From the NCBI RefSeq assembly GCF_020616515.1, contig NZ_CP085135.1, positions 6,185,001 through 6,249,000 of the forward strand: DNA of 64,000 nt, in the 5' to 3' direction. Of this stretch, positions 14,335 through 48,846 are shown piece by piece (positions within the stretch are counted from its first letter, which is position 1; each line of letters opens with the position of its first letter). The notes beneath the pieces are model-generated. The model had not been told where the DNA came from. It made no database searches and was given only the letters and a program-made list of their open reading frames with translations. The position numbers and the translations under genes were made by a program. This DNA comes from Mesorhizobium sp. PAMC28654. GTDB taxonomy: Bacteria; Pseudomonadota; Alphaproteobacteria; Rhizobiales; Rhizobiaceae.

Positions 14335-14347
14335 TTGTGGCCAGTTC

Positions 14348-14977
14348 TCATTCCCTGAGCGATGCCGGACCGCTGACGAACGGGCTGCCCCGGAGATAAA
14401 ACCGCAGGGGGCGGTCCGCGTCTTTCGAAATGCCGATCCTGATGCTCTGGCCGATCTCGCCGTGTTCCCGGTCATCGTGCGCGAGCCATAGCGGCCCTTG
14501 CCGGCAAAGATCGAGGCCGTCCAGCGAACGGTCGATCCGCAGCGCCATGGCCAGCCGTCCCGGTCCTCGCGTCAGGTCGCGCAGGCGCTCATTGCCGCGA
14601 TTGAGTTGCATGATCGGGATGCCTTCGAGCGGCGCGAGCGCCCGGATCAGCACGCCGGTTCCGGTCCCCGCCGCTTCGCTGGAGACATTCAGCATCCAGG
14701 ATACGCCATAGGCGCGATAGACATAGGCGTGGCCGCGCTCGAGAAACAGCGAACGGTTGCGCAGCGTCATGCCTCGAAAACCGTGCCCGGCGGCGTCGCC
14801 AACGACATAGGCTTCTGTCTCGACAATGCGGCCGCTGACCATGCCTTCGGGCAATTGCCGGATCACCAGCTTGCCGATGAGATAGCGGGCGAGTGCGGCG
14901 GTATCATCCGGCAGCTCGGCGCGGGCGATCGGCGGATGATCGTCCTTTTGACTGTTCACGGTATCCGCTCGACCCAT
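14348..14977 (-). CDS. DNA-3-methyladenine glycosylase, AAG/MPG family
   Basis: The 209-residue protein contains the family core RIVETEAYVVGDAAGHGFRG (residues 50-69). By comparison with human AAG, Glu55 is the catalytic base, and Tyr57 and His65 stack on the flipped base. It also has YRAYGVSWMLNV and GPGRLAMAL, typical of the family. It excises alkylated and deaminated purines and starts base-excision repair. The start overlaps the end of the upstream NTF2-like gene by 22 bases. Confidence 0.92.
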   Translation of the reverse strand: MGRADTVNSQKDDHPPIARAELPDDTAALARYLIGKLVIRQLPEGMVSGRIVETEAYVVGDAAGHGFRGMTLRNRSLFLERGHAYVYRAYGVSWMLNVSSEAAGTGTGVLIRALAPLEGIPIMQLNRGNERLRDLTRGPGRLAMALRIDRSLDGLDLCRQGPLWLAHDDREHGEIGQSIRIGISKDADRPLRFYLRGSPFVSGPASLRE

Positions 14978-42592: not shown

Positions 42593-42761
42593 GCCATGGC
42601 GCGCAAGGGCGCGTTGCCGCCCGGATGGACTTTCGCGGCGACTGGATAAAAAATGCAACCGGATTGTCGGAGTGGGATTCGTTTGAGCGTCCTTGGAGCG
42701 CAACCGGCGTGGTGAAGCTGCAAGTCGTCGCGCCGTGCGGACACCAATTCGGGAGAAAAGC

Positions 42762-43962
42762 ATGAGCCTTCCCTATCGTTGGGTCATCGTCGCCGCCGGC
42801 GCCGTGATGACCTGTGTCGCGCTGGGCGCGATGTTTTCGCTGGCGATCTTCCTCGAGCCAATGGCACTCGACACCAACTGGTCGCGCACCGGCATTTCGA
42901 GTGCCATGACGCTGAATTTCCTGGTGATGGGCGTCGGTGGCTTCGTCTGGGGTGCGATCTACGACCGCCTTGGCGCGCCCCGTCGTCATGATCGGCGCGG
43001 TCATGCTCGGGCTGGCGCTGGTGCTGGCAAGCCGGGCCGGCTCGCTGCTGTCGTTTCAGCTCACCTATGGCGTGCTGGTTGGTCTTGCCGCGAGTTCCTT
43101 CTTCGCGCCGATGATCGCGCTGACCACCGGCTGGTTCGACACCAACCGCGGCCTCGCCGTGTCGCTGGTCTCGGCCGGCATGGGTGTCGCGCCTATGACC
43201 ATCTCGCCCTTCGCGCGCTGGCTGATCTCGGCCTATGACTGGCGCACCGCCATGTTCGACATCGGCGTGATGGCCTGGGTGCTGCTGATACCGGTGATGT
43301 TTCTGGTGCGTCAGCCGCCCAAGCCTGTCACTGACGCCGCCGACCCGGAGCCGGTCGCCGAGGGGGCTGATATGTCGGTGGGGCAGGCGTTGCGCTCGCC
43401 GCAATTCATCATTCTGGGCCTCACCTTTTTTGCCTGCTGCGCCGCGCATTCGGGGCCGATCTTCCACATGGTCAGCTATGCCATGCTGTGCGGGGTGGCG
43501 CCCATGGCGGCTGTTACGATCTATAGCGTCGAGGGCCTGGCGGGGCTGGGAGGCCGGCTGCTCTACGGCGTGCTCGCCGACCGGCTGGGCGTCAAGCCGG
43601 TGCTGGTCGCCGGTCTGGCCATACAGGCCGTGGTCATCGCCGCCTATCTTGGCGTGCGCCAGCTCGAGCATTTCTACATGCTGGCCGTCATCTTCGGCGC
43701 CACCTATGGCGGCGTGATGCCGCTCTACGCGGTGCTGGCGCGCGAGTATTTCGGGCAGCGCATCCTCGGCACGGTGTTTGGCGCGGCGACCATGCTGTCC
43801 AGCCTCGGCATGGCCTTCGGGCCGCTCGCCGGCGGCATGGTGTTCGATGCCTATGCCAGCTATTCTTGGCTGTTCATCGGCTCGGCCATCATCGGGCTGG
43901 GCGCGGCGGGCATTGCGATTGCCTTCCCGCCACTGCCGCGCCGGGAGTTGCAGCCGGCGTAG
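42762..43962 (+). pseudogene. MFS transporter (oxalate/monocarboxylate-like) with a frameshift
   Basis: The ATG at 42762 follows GGGAGA. The first 73 or so codons give two membrane segments. Near 42972-42978 the frame shifts in the run GGCGCGCCCC, and the rest of a typical twelve-segment major facilitator continues to 43962 (RPVVMIGAVMLGLALVLASR, then SLVSAGMGVAPMTISPFARW). Restoring one GC unit gives DRLGARPVVMIG, the usual loop 2-3 signature. It resembles OxlT/monocarboxylate members. A pseudogene, unless the sequence has a 2-base error. Confidence 0.82.
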
Positions 43963-44087: not shown

Positions 44088-44103
44088 TGATCGAATTTGA
44101 TCA
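44088..44103. promoter_or_regulatory. palindromic LacI-type operator 1
   Basis: TGATCGAATTTGATCA overlaps the LacI start region and matches 14 of 16 positions of the operator at 45120-45135. Its position suggests autoregulation. Confidence 0.7.
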
Positions 44104-45122
44104 GAGAGGGCGCCATCTCCAAGCCGACCTTTGCCGACATCGCTCGCCGCGCCGGAGTTGGCACGGCTACGGTCGAACGCGTCCTCAACGGCAGGGGCGG
44201 CGTCAGGCCCGAAACCGTGGAAAAGGTGGTGGCGGCGGCGCGAACGCTCGACTATCCCCGCCGGCTGCCCGACGCGCATCGAGGGATCATCCGGATCGAG
44301 GTCATCCTGGTTCGCCCGGACTCGACCTTCTTCTCCCGTCTCTCCCGCGCCTTCGAGCGCATCGCCGCGACCCTGGACCGGACCATTGCGGTGCACAGGA
44401 CGTTCCTCGACGAGGGAGATGCCCAGGCCGTCGCGCGGCGGATCCGCGAGCCGGGCGCGCGCCGGGGCGGCCTGATCCTCGCGGTTCCAGACCATCCGTC
44501 GATCTGCGCGGCACTTGCCGAAGTCGAGGCCCAGGGCCTTCCCACGGTGCAGATCGTGACCCGGATCGCCGGTTCGAAGGCCGATTATGTCGGCATCGAC
44601 AATTACGCCGCCGGGCGCATGGCGGCGCATCTGATGCGCGGCATGCAGCAGCGGCCGGGCAGCATTGCCGCCTTGTGCCACAGCCAGATCTACCAGGTGC
44701 ACCGCGACCGCATTCGCGGCTTTTCCGACTATCTCGCCGAGCATCCGCGTGAGGACCTCACTTTCACCGAACTGCTGTTTGGCCATGATGACGGACGCCG
44801 AAGCGCTGATCTTCTCGATGAGACGCTGCGGCGGCGGCCCGATCTCGTCGGCTTCTACAATGCCGGCGGCGGCAATGGGTCGCTCAACCAGCTTCTGCGG
44901 CGTCATCCGCGCAGCCGCGACATCTTCTTCGTCGGCCATGAACTGACCGAGCGCAGCACCGCCGCGCTGCGCGAGGGGACAATGGACGTCGTGCTCGACC
45001 AGGCGCCCGAGGCGCAGGCGCGCCGTTCGATCGATCTGGTCCTGGCGCGGCTGGGCTTGCATGACCTGCCCATCGAGAACCCACCGATACGCTTCGTCAC
45101 CTTCACGGCCGAGAATCTCTGA
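44097..45122 (+). CDS. LacI-family transcriptional regulator
   Basis: The 341-residue protein has the LacI helix-turn-helix (KPTFADIARRAGVGTATVER, then VLNGRGGVRPETVEKV) and a sugar-binding core that resembles ribose-binding proteins (FFSRLSRAFERIAATLDRTI, then YVGIDNYAAGRMAAHLMRGM). The only start in frame before the HTH is TTG at 44097, inside operator 1. It sits at the head of a catabolic operon with a matching operator (45120-45135) and should release on binding the pathway's inducer. Confidence 0.88.
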   Translation: MIREGAISKPTFADIARRAGVGTATVERVLNGRGGVRPETVEKVVAAARTLDYPRRLPDAHRGIIRIEVILVRPDSTFFSRLSRAFERIAATLDRTIAVHRTFLDEGDAQAVARRIREPGARRGGLILAVPDHPSICAALAEVEAQGLPTVQIVTRIAGSKADYVGIDNYAAGRMAAHLMRGMQQRPGSIAALCHSQIYQVHRDRIRGFSDYLAEHPREDLTFTELLFGHDDGRRSADLLDETLRRRPDLVGFYNAGGGNGSLNQLLRRHPRSRDIFFVGHELTERSTAALREGTMDVVLDQAPEAQARRSIDLVLARLGLHDLPIENPPIRFVTFTAENL

Positions 45123-45135
45123 TCTGATTTGATCA
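45120..45135. promoter_or_regulatory. palindromic LacI-type operator 2
   Basis: TGATCTGATTTGATCA overlaps the LacI stop codon and lies 62 bases before the PanB-like start. The sequence is nearly the same as operator 1 at 44088-44103, so one regulator likely binds both. Confidence 0.7.
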
Positions 45136-45196
45136 AGGAACAAGCGGCCCTCCACCAGTCGCGGTGCTATGCCGGCCGCGAATGTGGGGACGCGCT

Positions 45197-45988
45197 TTGA
45201 CAAGACGGCTGACCGTATATGACCTGAAGAGCCTGAAGGGCCGCCGCAAATGGCTGCAGCTTCACGTCGACACGCCGGCCGAGGCAGCGGCCGCGGTCGC
45301 TTGCGACATCGCCATCCTGTCCTGCGAACCCGACCACAATCTCGAAGCCATCCGCGCCATGGCGCCCCATGCCTTCGTCTCCGTCGGCATGCCGCACGGC
45401 GCGGTTGCTTCGCCTGACGAGGCGGTGCGGCTCGGCTTCGCCATCATGCGGCGCGGCGCCGACGCTGTTTATTGCTCGCATTCGCCGCGCTTCATCGAGG
45501 CGATGGCGGCCGAAGGCATTCCGGTGACCGGCCATGTCGGCCTGGTGCCGAACCTCGCGACCTGGACGAATTTCCGCGCCATCGGCAAGACCGCCGAGGA
45601 GGCGCTGAGGGTGCTGCGCGCGGTGAAGGATCTGGAGAATGCGGGGGCCGCCTGCGTCGAGGTGGAGGTCGTGCCGGTCCGGCTCGCCGACCACATCACC
45701 AGCGCCACGCCGATGATCACCATGGGCATGGGCTGCGGCTCGGCCTGCGATACGCAATATCTGTTTTCCAGCGACGTGCTTGGCACGCATTCCGGTCATT
45801 ACCCCCGCCATTCCAGGCGCTATGCCGACTTCATCGCGCTGGAAGCCGAACTGCAGTCAAAGCGGATCGCGGCGTTCCGCGCCTTCGCGGGCGAGGTGGC
45901 TGACGGCAGCTATCCCGCAGCGGAGCACCGGGTCGACATGGACGATGCCGCCTTCGATCGCTTGCTGACCCTTTCCCAGTCCCTGTGA
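45197..45988 (+). CDS. PanB-like (ketopantoate hydroxymethyltransferase family) enzyme
   Basis: The 263-residue protein keeps PanB features: GHVGLVPN, CVEVEVVPVRLADHIT with the position of the catalytic Glu, PMITMGMGCGSACDTQYLFS and HPRHSRRYADF-like HYPRHSRRYADF. The N-terminal metal-site region (GDSLG-type in true PanB) is replaced by ILSCEPDHNLEAI, so it is a paralogue with changed chemistry. PanB adds a hydroxymethyl group from methylene-THF; here it may handle a C1 unit or do aldol chemistry in the neighbouring pathway. Start is uncertain: TTG 45197 (GGGGA upstream) or ATG 45182. Confidence 0.75.
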   Translation: MTRRLTVYDLKSLKGRRKWLQLHVDTPAEAAAAVACDIAILSCEPDHNLEAIRAMAPHAFVSVGMPHGAVASPDEAVRLGFAIMRRGADAVYCSHSPRFIEAMAAEGIPVTGHVGLVPNLATWTNFRAIGKTAEEALRVLRAVKDLENAGAACVEVEVVPVRLADHITSATPMITMGMGCGSACDTQYLFSSDVLGTHSGHYPRHSRRYADFIALEAELQSKRIAAFRAFAGEVADGSYPAAEHRVDMDDAAFDRLLTLSQSL

Positions 45989-45995
45989 GGCCGCG

Positions 45996-47000
45996 ATGGA
46001 CGACCTGAAATATGGCAAGCGCAACAAGCGCGGCGACTGGGCTCCCAATGAGCCGGCGGAAACCGCGCCGCTGTTTGCCTGGCCGCCCCAGCCGCTCAAA
46101 GTCCTGAAGTGGCTGCCGCACTACTTCCTGCCCTACAATTTGCTGTTCGCTGTTTCGGCGGTTGTCTGGTGGCACTTCGTGCTGCCCGATGTCGAGGTGA
46201 TGAAGACGCTGGCCTGGGGCTGGATCCTCAAGCTCTTCCTTGTCAACTGTGCCGCGCTTCTCCTGTTCTTCGGCGCTTTCGAACTGCGGCTCTACATCCT
46301 GCGGTCACAGGGCAATCGCTTCAAATACAACGGTAAATGGCCGTCGGAGCAGAAGAGCAAGGCCTTCTTCTTCGAGAGCCAGAACATCGACAACATGCTG
46401 CGCACCTTCGGCACAGGCATGCCGATCTGGACCGCGATCCAGGTCGCCATCCTCCATGCCTACGCCAATGGCTATGTGCCGTGGCTCGGCTTTGCCGAGC
46501 ACCCCCTGTACCTGTTTTGCCTGGCGCTGGTGGTGCCGATCATCCACGAAACCCATTTCTTCCTGCTGCACAGGGCGATCCACTGGCCGCCGCTCTACAG
46601 ATGGGTGCATTCGGTCCACCACAATTCGGTGAACCCGTCGCCCTGGTCGTCGCTGGCGATGCACCCCGTGGAGCAACTCGGTTATCTTGGTGTCGCGCTG
46701 TGGCATCTGGTCATCCCGTCGAACCCGATCCTGGCGCTTTACCAGCTCCACCTTGCGGGCTTCGGCGCCATTCCCGGCCATGTCGGCTTCGACAAGGTCG
46801 AGGTCGGCGACAATGCCGCCGTCGATAGCCACGCCTACATCCACTACCTCCACCACAAATATTTCGAGGTGAACTACGGCGACGGCCTGATCCCGTTCGA
46901 CAAGTGGCTGGGCACTTTCCACGACGGCGGCAAGGAAGGCGAGGAGCGCATGCAGGCCCGCTACGAAAAGAAGAAGGCGCGCGCCAACGCAGCCAGGTGA
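45996..47000 (+). CDS. sterol desaturase / fatty acid hydroxylase-superfamily membrane di-iron enzyme
   Basis: The 334-residue protein has four to five membrane segments and the histidine clusters that bind two irons: HETHFFLLHRAIHW, HSVHHNSVNPSPW and YLHHKYFEVNYGDG. It hydroxylates or desaturates, or opens an ether, using O2 and electrons from a ferredoxin. The Rieske ferredoxin gene downstream is the likely donor. It begins seven bases after the PanB-like gene. The role compares with MocD in rhizopine catabolism, but by context rather than by sequence that I can align here. Confidence 0.88.
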   Translation: MDDLKYGKRNKRGDWAPNEPAETAPLFAWPPQPLKVLKWLPHYFLPYNLLFAVSAVVWWHFVLPDVEVMKTLAWGWILKLFLVNCAALLLFFGAFELRLYILRSQGNRFKYNGKWPSEQKSKAFFFESQNIDNMLRTFGTGMPIWTAIQVAILHAYANGYVPWLGFAEHPLYLFCLALVVPIIHETHFFLLHRAIHWPPLYRWVHSVHHNSVNPSPWSSLAMHPVEQLGYLGVALWHLVIPSNPILALYQLHLAGFGAIPGHVGFDKVEVGDNAAVDSHAYIHYLHHKYFEVNYGDGLIPFDKWLGTFHDGGKEGEERMQARYEKKKARANAAR

Positions 47001-47092
47001 ACGCGTTCACGCGCCAATCCATCAAGCATCCCGCAAGGGCCGGTATTCCAGAAAAAGGGGTGAGCCGGCACTCCGTTCCAGGGAGGAAATCC

Positions 47093-48034
47093 ATGAAGAG
47101 ACTTCTGTTCTCGGCGGCGTTGGCGACCATGATGTCGACTGGCGCCATGGCCCAGAAGATCGGCGTCAGCATCGTCAACTTCGACAACAATTTCCAGACG
47201 CTGCTGATGCACGGCATGCAGGACCGGGCCAAGGAAAAGGGCGTCGGCATCCAGGTCGAGGATGCGCAGAACGACGTTGCCAAGCAGCTTGACCAGGTGA
47301 AGAATTTCATCGCCAGTGGCGTCGACGCCATCGTCGTCACGCTGGTCGACACGAATGCGTCCAGGACGCTGAGCGAGGAGGCCGCGAAGGCCGGCATCCC
47401 GCTGGTCTTCGTCAATCTCGAGCCCAACGACATGAAGAACCTTCCGGCAAAACAGGTTTATGTCGGATCGAACGAGGTCGAGTCCGGAACGCTCGCGGCC
47501 TTCGAAGTGTGCAAGATGCTGCGCGCCAAGGGCAAGTCGGCTGGCGCCAAGGCCTACATCGTCATGGGCAGCCTGGTCCATCAGGCGGCGCTGCAGCGGA
47601 CGAAGGACGTCGAGCAGGTGTTCGGCACCGATATGTGCAACTTCATCAAGGTCGTCGACAAGCAGTCGTCCGAATGGTCGCGCGACAACGCACAGAACCT
47701 GATGACCAACTGGCTGACGGCCGGGCCGGCGCCCGATGCGGTGCTCGCCAACAATGACGAATCGGCCATCGGCGCGATCCTGGCGCTCAAGGCCAACGGC
47801 GTCGACATGAAGAATGTCGTCGTCGGCGGCGTCGACGCCACGCCGGATGGCTTGCAGGCGATGAAGGCGGGCGACCTCGCGGTGACGGTGTTCCAGAACG
47901 CCAAGGCGCAAGGCGGCGGTGGCGTCGACGCGGCAATCGCGCTCGCCAAGGGCGAGAAGGTCGACCGTGTCGTCTATGTGCCGTTCGAGTTGGTCACGCC
48001 CGCCAACATGGACGCGTATCTGAACAAGAACTGA
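47093..48034 (+). CDS. periplasmic sugar-binding protein (RbsB/MocB-like)
   Basis: The 313-residue protein has a signal peptide (LLFSAALATMMSTGAMAQ) and a type I binding fold: IGVSIVNFDNNFQTLLMHGM, FIASGVDAIVVTLVDTNA, and the C-lobe NDESAIGAILALKANGVDMK. It follows GGGAGGA. No ABC ATPase or permease lies in this cluster, so it must work with a distant transporter. Homologues include inositol- and rhizopine-binding proteins. Confidence 0.87.
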   Translation: MKRLLFSAALATMMSTGAMAQKIGVSIVNFDNNFQTLLMHGMQDRAKEKGVGIQVEDAQNDVAKQLDQVKNFIASGVDAIVVTLVDTNASRTLSEEAAKAGIPLVFVNLEPNDMKNLPAKQVYVGSNEVESGTLAAFEVCKMLRAKGKSAGAKAYIVMGSLVHQAALQRTKDVEQVFGTDMCNFIKVVDKQSSEWSRDNAQNLMTNWLTAGPAPDAVLANNDESAIGAILALKANGVDMKNVVVGGVDATPDGLQAMKAGDLAVTVFQNAKAQGGGGVDAAIALAKGEKVDRVVYVPFELVTPANMDAYLNKN

Positions 48035-48116
48035 TCCCAGGACCGAGTCCTCCGGGGTGGTCGTCATGGCCGTCCCGGAACCGGAATTGACGGGCCAGAA
48101 TTGATGGGGGAGAAAA

Positions 48117-48434
48117 ATGTCCAGCTGGATCAGGGCTTGCAGCCTAGACGACATCGAACAGGAGGGCGCCTTGCGTTTCGATCAGGGCGGCAAGACCTAC
48201 GCGGTCTTCCGCTCACCGGACGACGAGGTGTTCTGCACCGACGGCCTGTGCACGCACGAAGCCGTCCATCTCGCCGACGGGCTGGTCATGGATTACGAAA
48301 TCGAATGCCCCAAGCATGCCGGTGCGTTCGACTACCGCACCGGCGAAGCCAGGCGCCTGCCGCCTTGCATCAACCTCGGCACCTATCCGGCAAAAGTGGA
48401 AGCCGGCGCCGTGATGATCAGCTTGCCGGATTGA
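48117..48434 (+). CDS. MocE-family Rieske-type [2Fe-2S] ferredoxin
   Basis: The 105-residue protein has both Rieske halves: DGLCTHEAVHLADG (Cys-x-His) and IECPKHAGAFDYRTG (Cys-x2-His). The overall pattern fits MocE, the ferredoxin of rhizopine (3-O-methyl-scyllo-inosamine) catabolism. It would pass electrons to the membrane di-iron hydroxylase encoded at 45996-47000. No ferredoxin reductase gene (MocF counterpart) follows in the window. Confidence 0.88.
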   Translation: MSSWIRACSLDDIEQEGALRFDQGGKTYAVFRSPDDEVFCTDGLCTHEAVHLADGLVMDYEIECPKHAGAFDYRTGEARRLPPCINLGTYPAKVEAGAVMISLPD

Positions 48435-48540: not shown

Positions 48541-48846
48541 ATGGACGAGCCCGAACGGTGGCGCCACATGTCGACGGCGCCGAGGGATGGCAGCCGGATT
48601 CTTGTCACGGTCCGGCCGTCCGAGCAGGGGCCCGCCGAAGTCGACCTTGCCTACTGGTCGCGCGCCGACCAGTTTGCCAGCGAGGGATGGCGGGCGTCCG
48701 ACTCGTCGCCGGGACGGGTGATCGAATACGCGGACCCGGAGTTGAAGTGCTGGATGCCGCTTCCGTCCGCCAATATCAGCAGGGGTTCGCTGCCCTCTCC
48801 ATGGCAGGGGGAGGACAGCCAGCAGCTGGACGGTTCGGGGATTTAG
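48541..48846 (+). CDS. small hypothetical protein (101 aa)
   Basis: A GGAGG site precedes MDEPERWRHMSTAPRDGSRI, a start found in short proteins that carry the AP-x-DG motif of DUF551-like domains. The rest has W-rich strands (LAYWSRADQFASEGWRAS). The final 20 residues look like read-through into repeat-like DNA and may not be native. Function unknown. Confidence 0.5.
   Translation: MDEPERWRHMSTAPRDGSRILVTVRPSEQGPAEVDLAYWSRADQFASEGWRASDSSPGRVIEYADPELKCWMPLPSANISRGSLPSPWQGEDSQQLDGSGI

Follow-up and report, generated by a model that had tools for sequence, protein, structure and literature searches.

The window analysed here, a stretch of 64,000 nucleotides at positions 6185001-6249000 of the 6.70 Mb single-contig genome of Mesorhizobium sp. 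PAMC28654 (the nearest named loci are from Mesorhizobium), carries a cluster of five genes that, judging from its gene context, quite probably directs the oxidative O-demethylation of a methylated cyclitol or sugar. For the whole scheme of an inducible O-demethylation operon, we put the chances at about even. The step in which a PanB-like protein would pass the released one-carbon (C1) unit to tetrahydrofolate (THF) is the most speculative part and a tentative proposal that falls short of an even chance. The five genes and two operators are the following.

44088..44103, no strand assigned: LacI-type operator TGATCGAATTTGATCA at the lacI start, from a search for the palindrome TGATCN6GATCA
44097..45122, + strand: LacI-family regulator (PF00356 and PF13407), whose orthologs adjoin PanB-like genes in relatives
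45120..45135, no strand assigned: operator TGATCTGATTTGATCA upstream of the PanB-like gene, from the same palindrome search
45197..45988, + strand: PanB-like protein of 263 amino acids, with the PanB fold and without the PanB metal-ligand aspartates
45996..47000, + strand: membrane di-iron hydroxylase of the fatty-acid-hydroxylase superfamily (FAH), candidate O-demethylase (PF04116, 63.4 bits; conserved histidine motifs)
47093..48034, + strand: periplasmic sugar/cyclitol-binding protein (SBP) of the CUT2 type (PF13407)
48117..48434, + strand: MocE-family Rieske [2Fe-2S] ferredoxin (above the TIGR02377 cut-off)

As originally predicted, the five genes are consecutive on the + strand, each with its domain match and with 7-92 bases between neighbours. 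Comparison with orthologs places the start of the PanB-like gene at TTG 45197, the start at 45164 in the list of open reading frames (ORFs) being too early. The expectation that the five genes would co-occur elsewhere was also borne out. Among the 36 nearest loci, which come from close Mesorhizobium-type relatives of at least 82% identity, the order LacI, PanB-like, FAH, SBP, MocE is complete in 27, with MocE undetected in 5 and SBP undetected in 4. An ortholog of at least 82% identity is present in 35 of the 119 genomes of the genus (window genome included), and in Rhizobium, Labrys, Rubellimicrobium and Rhodobacterales, the LacI, PanB-like and FAH genes are mostly linked while the transporter differs. 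The co-occurrence of the five genes exceeds chance. There are no reductase, permease or ATPase genes within the window cluster, and the next downstream ORF scanned, at 48541, gave no family match. On the other side, 5' of lacI, an MFS transporter gene (42693-43962) is split into two overlapping frames that each match part of MFS_1.

Two copies of the palindrome TGATCN6GATCA lie in the window (at 44088 and 45120), where 0.09 are expected, and the genome as a whole has 17, 15 of them outside the window. The two copies suggest a single LacI-controlled unit, and autoregulation of lacI through the operator at 44088 is probable. The TTG start of the lacI ORF at 44097 falls inside this operator; by comparison with locus L201, the start could lie a few codons later, at ATC. 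Of 70 FAH-type loci from the range L028-L099, 54 have the palindrome in the 400 bp that precede the PanB-like gene; the 16 loci without it include 8 with a different LacI (L078, L080, L086, L088, L089 and L092-L094) and 4 with a near variant (L069, L076, L085 and L099). The Labrys locus L062 has three copies, ahead of MocF, of the PanB-like-FAH-MocE genes and of a permease gene, and L070 has a second copy ahead of an ATPase gene; in these genomes, the reductase or transporter probably belongs to the same regulon as the cluster. In a regulon search for the transporter and reductase, we inspected 4 of the 15 palindrome sites outside the window (L183, L189, L190 and L191) and found no CUT2 transporter or MocF operon at these four. 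The L183 site lies within the ORF of a Rieske-containing reductase (a 36% MocF homolog), and those of L189 and L190 fall within unrelated ORFs or at their ends. The L191 site is flanked by another LacI-family gene on one side and a sugar-phosphate-type gene on the other, the latter followed by a different type of binding protein.

The PanB-like protein matches PF02548 well above the cut-off and has the PanB fold, but its scores for PanB itself (EC 2.1.2.11) are below the cut-offs, at 97.5 bits against a cut-off of 207.55 for TIGR00222 and 119.8 against 272 for NF001452. We aligned 92 dereplicated relatives with PanB, whose metal aspartates and active-site lysine we take to be D45, D84 and K112 (E. 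coli numbering). At the matching positions, no relative has Asp or Lys: the first aspartate column is a gap in all 92, so that the loss there rests on the alignment, 89 have G or A in place of the second aspartate, and 79 have Y in place of the lysine. H113, W123, E155 and E157 are invariant across the 92. Compared with the PanB structure 1m3u, the metal aspartates, the lysine and the Glu that follows it are lost, W123, E155, R204-H205 and R223 are new and near-invariant, and the N-terminal part is shorter. On sequence grounds, the protein is not PanB, and the database name 3-methyl-2-oxobutanoate hydroxymethyltransferase is misleading for this family. A protein named as fungal (P0027, Colletotrichum chrysophilum), 77% identical to the PanB-like protein of the window, is encoded on a 1.6 kb contig and is probably bacterial contamination.

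The neighbours of the PanB-like genes are informative about what the protein might do. One scan of named genomes with an FAH-type alignment of 22 PanB-like proteins gave 80 loci (kept of 89), and a survey of 394 genomes of the family gave a PanB-like match at E 1e-40 in 109, from which 60 loci were picked for spread over genera. With L025 (a second cluster of the window genome, at 3.49 Mb) and L026, this made 142 loci, or 141 distinct ones after L179 (the same locus as L060) was dropped; the set was gathered with PanB-like queries, and 36 of the 80 scanned loci are close Mesorhizobium-type relatives. By a 7 kb rule, the oxygenase is FAH in 72 loci, MocD in 42, PhyH in 12 and both FAH and MocD in 4, with none in 11; in other words, 130 of the 141 have the PanB-like gene beside one of three unrelated oxygenases. 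Two of the four mixed loci (L128 and L136) are really MocD loci, their FAH matches having only 22-26% identity. The class without an oxygenase is largely an edge effect: six loci are cut by or near contig ends (L095, L123, L143, L163, L175 and L178), L161 and L162 have FAH at about 7.5 kb, L026 has PhyH at about 5 kb (the PhyH query was later taken from this locus), and L063 and L164 have no oxygenase in view. All 12 PhyH loci (L165-L174, L176 and L177) combine PhyH and the PanB-like gene with a CUT2 transporter, RbsK and RbsD, and they group together on the tree. In L163, a nucleoside hydrolase adjoins the PanB-like gene and RbsK, and this locus and the PhyH cassettes may possibly serve the use of O-methylribose or a methylated nucleoside. 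In L143, where the contig ends 3 kb upstream and no oxygenase is in view, the PanB-like gene has BtpA, a kinase resembling RbsK, a member of the phosphotriesterase family and a CUT2 transporter nearby. A third PanB-like gene of the window genome (L026:9500-10337, at 5.84 Mb) is in two frames and apparently broken; it adjoins RbsD, RbsK and a CUT2 transporter. That one protein accompanies oxygenases of three unrelated kinds, as well as several sugar transporters, suggests that its role concerns a product which they share; for O-demethylases, this product is formaldehyde or its hemiacetal.

In 12 of the 141 loci (L061, L074, L083, L120, L126, L129, L133, L138, L144, L149, L158 and L160), the PanB-like gene has the gene for PurU, the formyl-THF deformylase, on its own strand at a distance of at most 5 kb; 11 of the 12 are above the TIGR00655 cut-off, and in L061 only the start is present, the contig end cutting off the rest. 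In seven MocD loci, PurU is immediately 3' of the PanB-like gene, and in L138, PurU is followed by an intact FolD; the FolD match of L083 covers only 14345-14760, with no ORF of at least 150 amino acids there, and is not counted as intact. On the tree of the 92 relatives (10 with PurU), PurU presence or absence switches no fewer than 9 times; the tree is of a quick type, with long rows (PanB_own, L148, L163 and L164), and the switches cannot separate gain from loss. A search at E 1e-60 found 38 PurU matches in 14 genomes, of which 11 lie no more than about 3.3 kb from a PanB-like gene, a rate that is not unbiased, nine of the 14 genomes having been chosen for such neighbours; two further PurU neighbours (G571:C2 and G508:C8) came from the five genomes that were not chosen for one. 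In a reciprocal search, FAH was found at E 1e-60 in 60 of the 394 genomes, and 20 FAH loci away from the listed PanB-like genes were fetched; the 19 without a PanB-like gene gave no PurU match. In our judgement, this contrast with 12 of 141 is not significant, and the repeated change on the tree is the better argument. The PurU neighbourhood points to a C1/THF role for the PanB-like family; this is a good lead from independent context, but the role would be accessory and not universal. The original prediction had offered two roles for the enzyme: the capture of a C1 unit gains from the PurU and FolD neighbours, while condensation, read as the PanB-type reaction of formaldehyde with an oxo acid, is disfavoured by the loss of the aligned metal ligands and lysine in all 92 relatives.

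In the scheme that we propose, LacI would sense the methylated (or a related) cyclitol or sugar and leave the two operators, and the SBP would capture the substrate for a CUT2 transporter encoded elsewhere, perhaps that of the 3.49 Mb cluster. Electrons from NAD(P)H would pass through a MocF-type reductase, supplied in trans, to the MocE ferredoxin and on to the membrane hydroxylase, which would hydroxylate the O-methyl group to a hemiacetal, R-O-CH2OH, that releases the free cyclitol or sugar and a formaldehyde-level C1 unit. Having lost the oxo-acid-enolising site of PanB but kept the core His and Glu, the PanB-like protein would most plausibly transfer this unit, as formaldehyde or hemiacetal, to THF; the resulting methylene-THF would go to FolD and, in some strains, PurU, and free cyclitol would enter inositol catabolism. 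Of this scheme, the genes and their conservation, the operators, the altered residues and the neighbourhoods were observed, and the class of substrate, the demethylation, the path of the electrons and the transport in trans are inferred. The spontaneous reaction of formaldehyde with THF has been considered unlikely to work effectively as a means of assimilation (PMC7073904), a gap that a dedicated enzyme would fill. That the family is an unrecognised folate enzyme, moving the C1 unit of O-demethylases (formaldehyde or R-O-CH2OH) to THF with no free formaldehyde, is possible, with the balance of probability against it. If true, it would play for THF the part that the formaldehyde-activating enzyme plays in methanopterin pathways, serving three unrelated oxygenases, and would be a folate enzyme hidden in many records under the PanB name.

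Several observations weigh against this scheme. PurU is missing within 5 kb in 129 of the 141 loci, and none above the cut-off was found in the window genome, which has two FolD genes. No PanB-like gene is present in 19 of the 20 fetched FAH loci (L199 holds a PanB-like piece), and ten of them (L200, L201, L203-L209 and L217) have LacI-FAH-MocE, MocF and the same palindrome without it, nine also with an SBP match, so a PanB-like gene close by is apparently dispensable for the demethylase. Near the gap at the first aspartate column, an acidic residue is found (E44 in 38 of the 92 relatives and D46 in 35), which could replace the first PanB aspartate in some members. PF04116 membership by itself is no proof of demethylation. 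Finally, the SBP is about equally similar to 4yo7, whose ligand is presumably myo-inositol, and to MglB, which binds glucose and galactose, and the substrate may therefore be a sugar; these two were its best solved relatives.

A different role for the PanB-like protein, on the carbon skeleton as a lyase, isomerase or epimerase of the demethylated cyclitol or sugar and with no part in C1 transfer, seems to us unlikely. The nearness of PurU would then be a coincidence, or PurU would serve free formaldehyde, but three unrelated oxygenases together with transporters of differing SBP types fit a common by-product better, and a coincidence sits poorly with a PurU state that changes so often on the tree.

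The hydroxylase, for its part, matched only PF04116 at E 0.001 (cut-off 31 bits), and H192xxxH196, H205xxHH and H283xxHH are invariant in the 9 aligned rows. The analogy to MocD drawn in the original prediction stands for the presence of an oxygenase gene but not for its family, MocD being a PF00487 protein (124.8 bits for the one of L025). Known PF04116 enzymes hydroxylate fatty acids, sterols and carotenoids, and a profile search at E 1 found no solved structural relative, which would leave room for an attack on a C-H bond in the ring or side chain of a sugar, cyclitol or lipid instead of an O-methyl group. We consider this improbable, as FAH occupies the place of MocD beside MocE and MocF and is found with PurU in L061, L074, L083, L120 and L160. 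The ferredoxin reaches 172.2 bits against a TIGR02377 cut-off of 136.15 and is MocE-like as predicted. For the reductase that the original prediction noted as missing, the candidate in the window genome is MocF2 at 3489484-3490707, in trans, and reductases adjoin the cluster itself in L061, L062, L074 and L083.

Demethylation of a methylated inositol or sugar, as first suggested, is well supported by the gene context, but the rhizopine option within that suggestion is not. The rhizopine system consists of mocDEF, mocR, mocBA and mocC with MocR as the regulator, and mocDEF belong to rhizopine catabolism (PMC10107442), so that the MocE-family ferredoxin could hint at the pathway for rhizopine (3-O-methyl-scyllo-inosamine) itself. 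This is very improbable: the SBP scores 45.1 bits against a cut-off of 420 for the rhizopine-binding protein MocB (NF052284), the regulator is LacI and not MocR, and the hydroxylase is of another family. The genes mocA and mocC encode dehydrogenase/isomerase-type enzymes, and none of that kind is among the five genes of the cluster. The SBP is instead 62% identical to SBP2 of L025, a cluster with MocD/E/F, another PanB-like protein and an inositol 2-dehydrogenase, whose LacI is 30% identical to that of the window and which lacks the palindrome. Least likely of all is that the PanB-like protein works as PanB does, in an aldol-type hydroxymethyl transfer from formaldehyde to an oxo acid, for despite the fold and the PF02548 match, the aligned metal aspartates and lysine are missing as described above and the genome carries a separate canonical PanB (L009).

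Legume roots exude O-methyl inositols, and the rhizobial demethylation of such compounds is what is at stake here. In the open-access literature, we found little on this demethylation or on the disposal of formaldehyde beyond rhizopine, and searches that combined PanB with rhizopine, its name with inositol and Rieske, or pinitol with bacterial demethylation listed no paper on a PanB-like role. The loci gathered here make the role of the PanB-like protein directly testable. In Rhizobium mesoamericanum STM3625, the strain of L074, homologs of mocDEF and mocB were reported to be upregulated in Mimosa exudate, in which pinitol was the most concentrated component measured and for which the authors propose rhizopine use (PMC5789663). 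FixV is described as a LacI-family activator of nifA2 in M. loti whose next homologs stand beside mocDEF, and Msi119 as a PF01261 protein whose homologs are linked by the authors to an inositol derivative (PMC3538637).

Among known systems, the cluster resembles the mocDEF rhizopine catabolism of S. meliloti L5-30 and R. leguminosarum in that both have a membrane oxygenase and a MocE-family ferredoxin beside a sugar/cyclitol-binding protein, and the reductase occurs in sister loci. It differs in having PF04116 in place of PF00487, a LacI and a PanB-like protein, and in having the reductase and transporter outside the cluster. In S. meliloti 1021, the LacI SMb20817 was grouped with mocD-E-F, SMb20818-20820 (PMC11387232), and another S. 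meliloti pSymB has a PanB-like gene after the reductase, annotated as 3-methyl-2-oxobutanoate hydroxymethyltransferase. L025 shares this organisation, whereas the window cluster has another hydroxylase, a divergent LacI (30%) and the extra palindrome. The nicotine operon purU-mabO-folD of plasmid pAO1, with FolD and PurU as the reported exit for methylene-THF, likewise couples a demethylase to these two enzymes; there, however, the reaction is an N-demethylation in which the oxidase itself yields methylene-THF, and the accessible part of that report does not name a PanB-like protein (PMC3891541).

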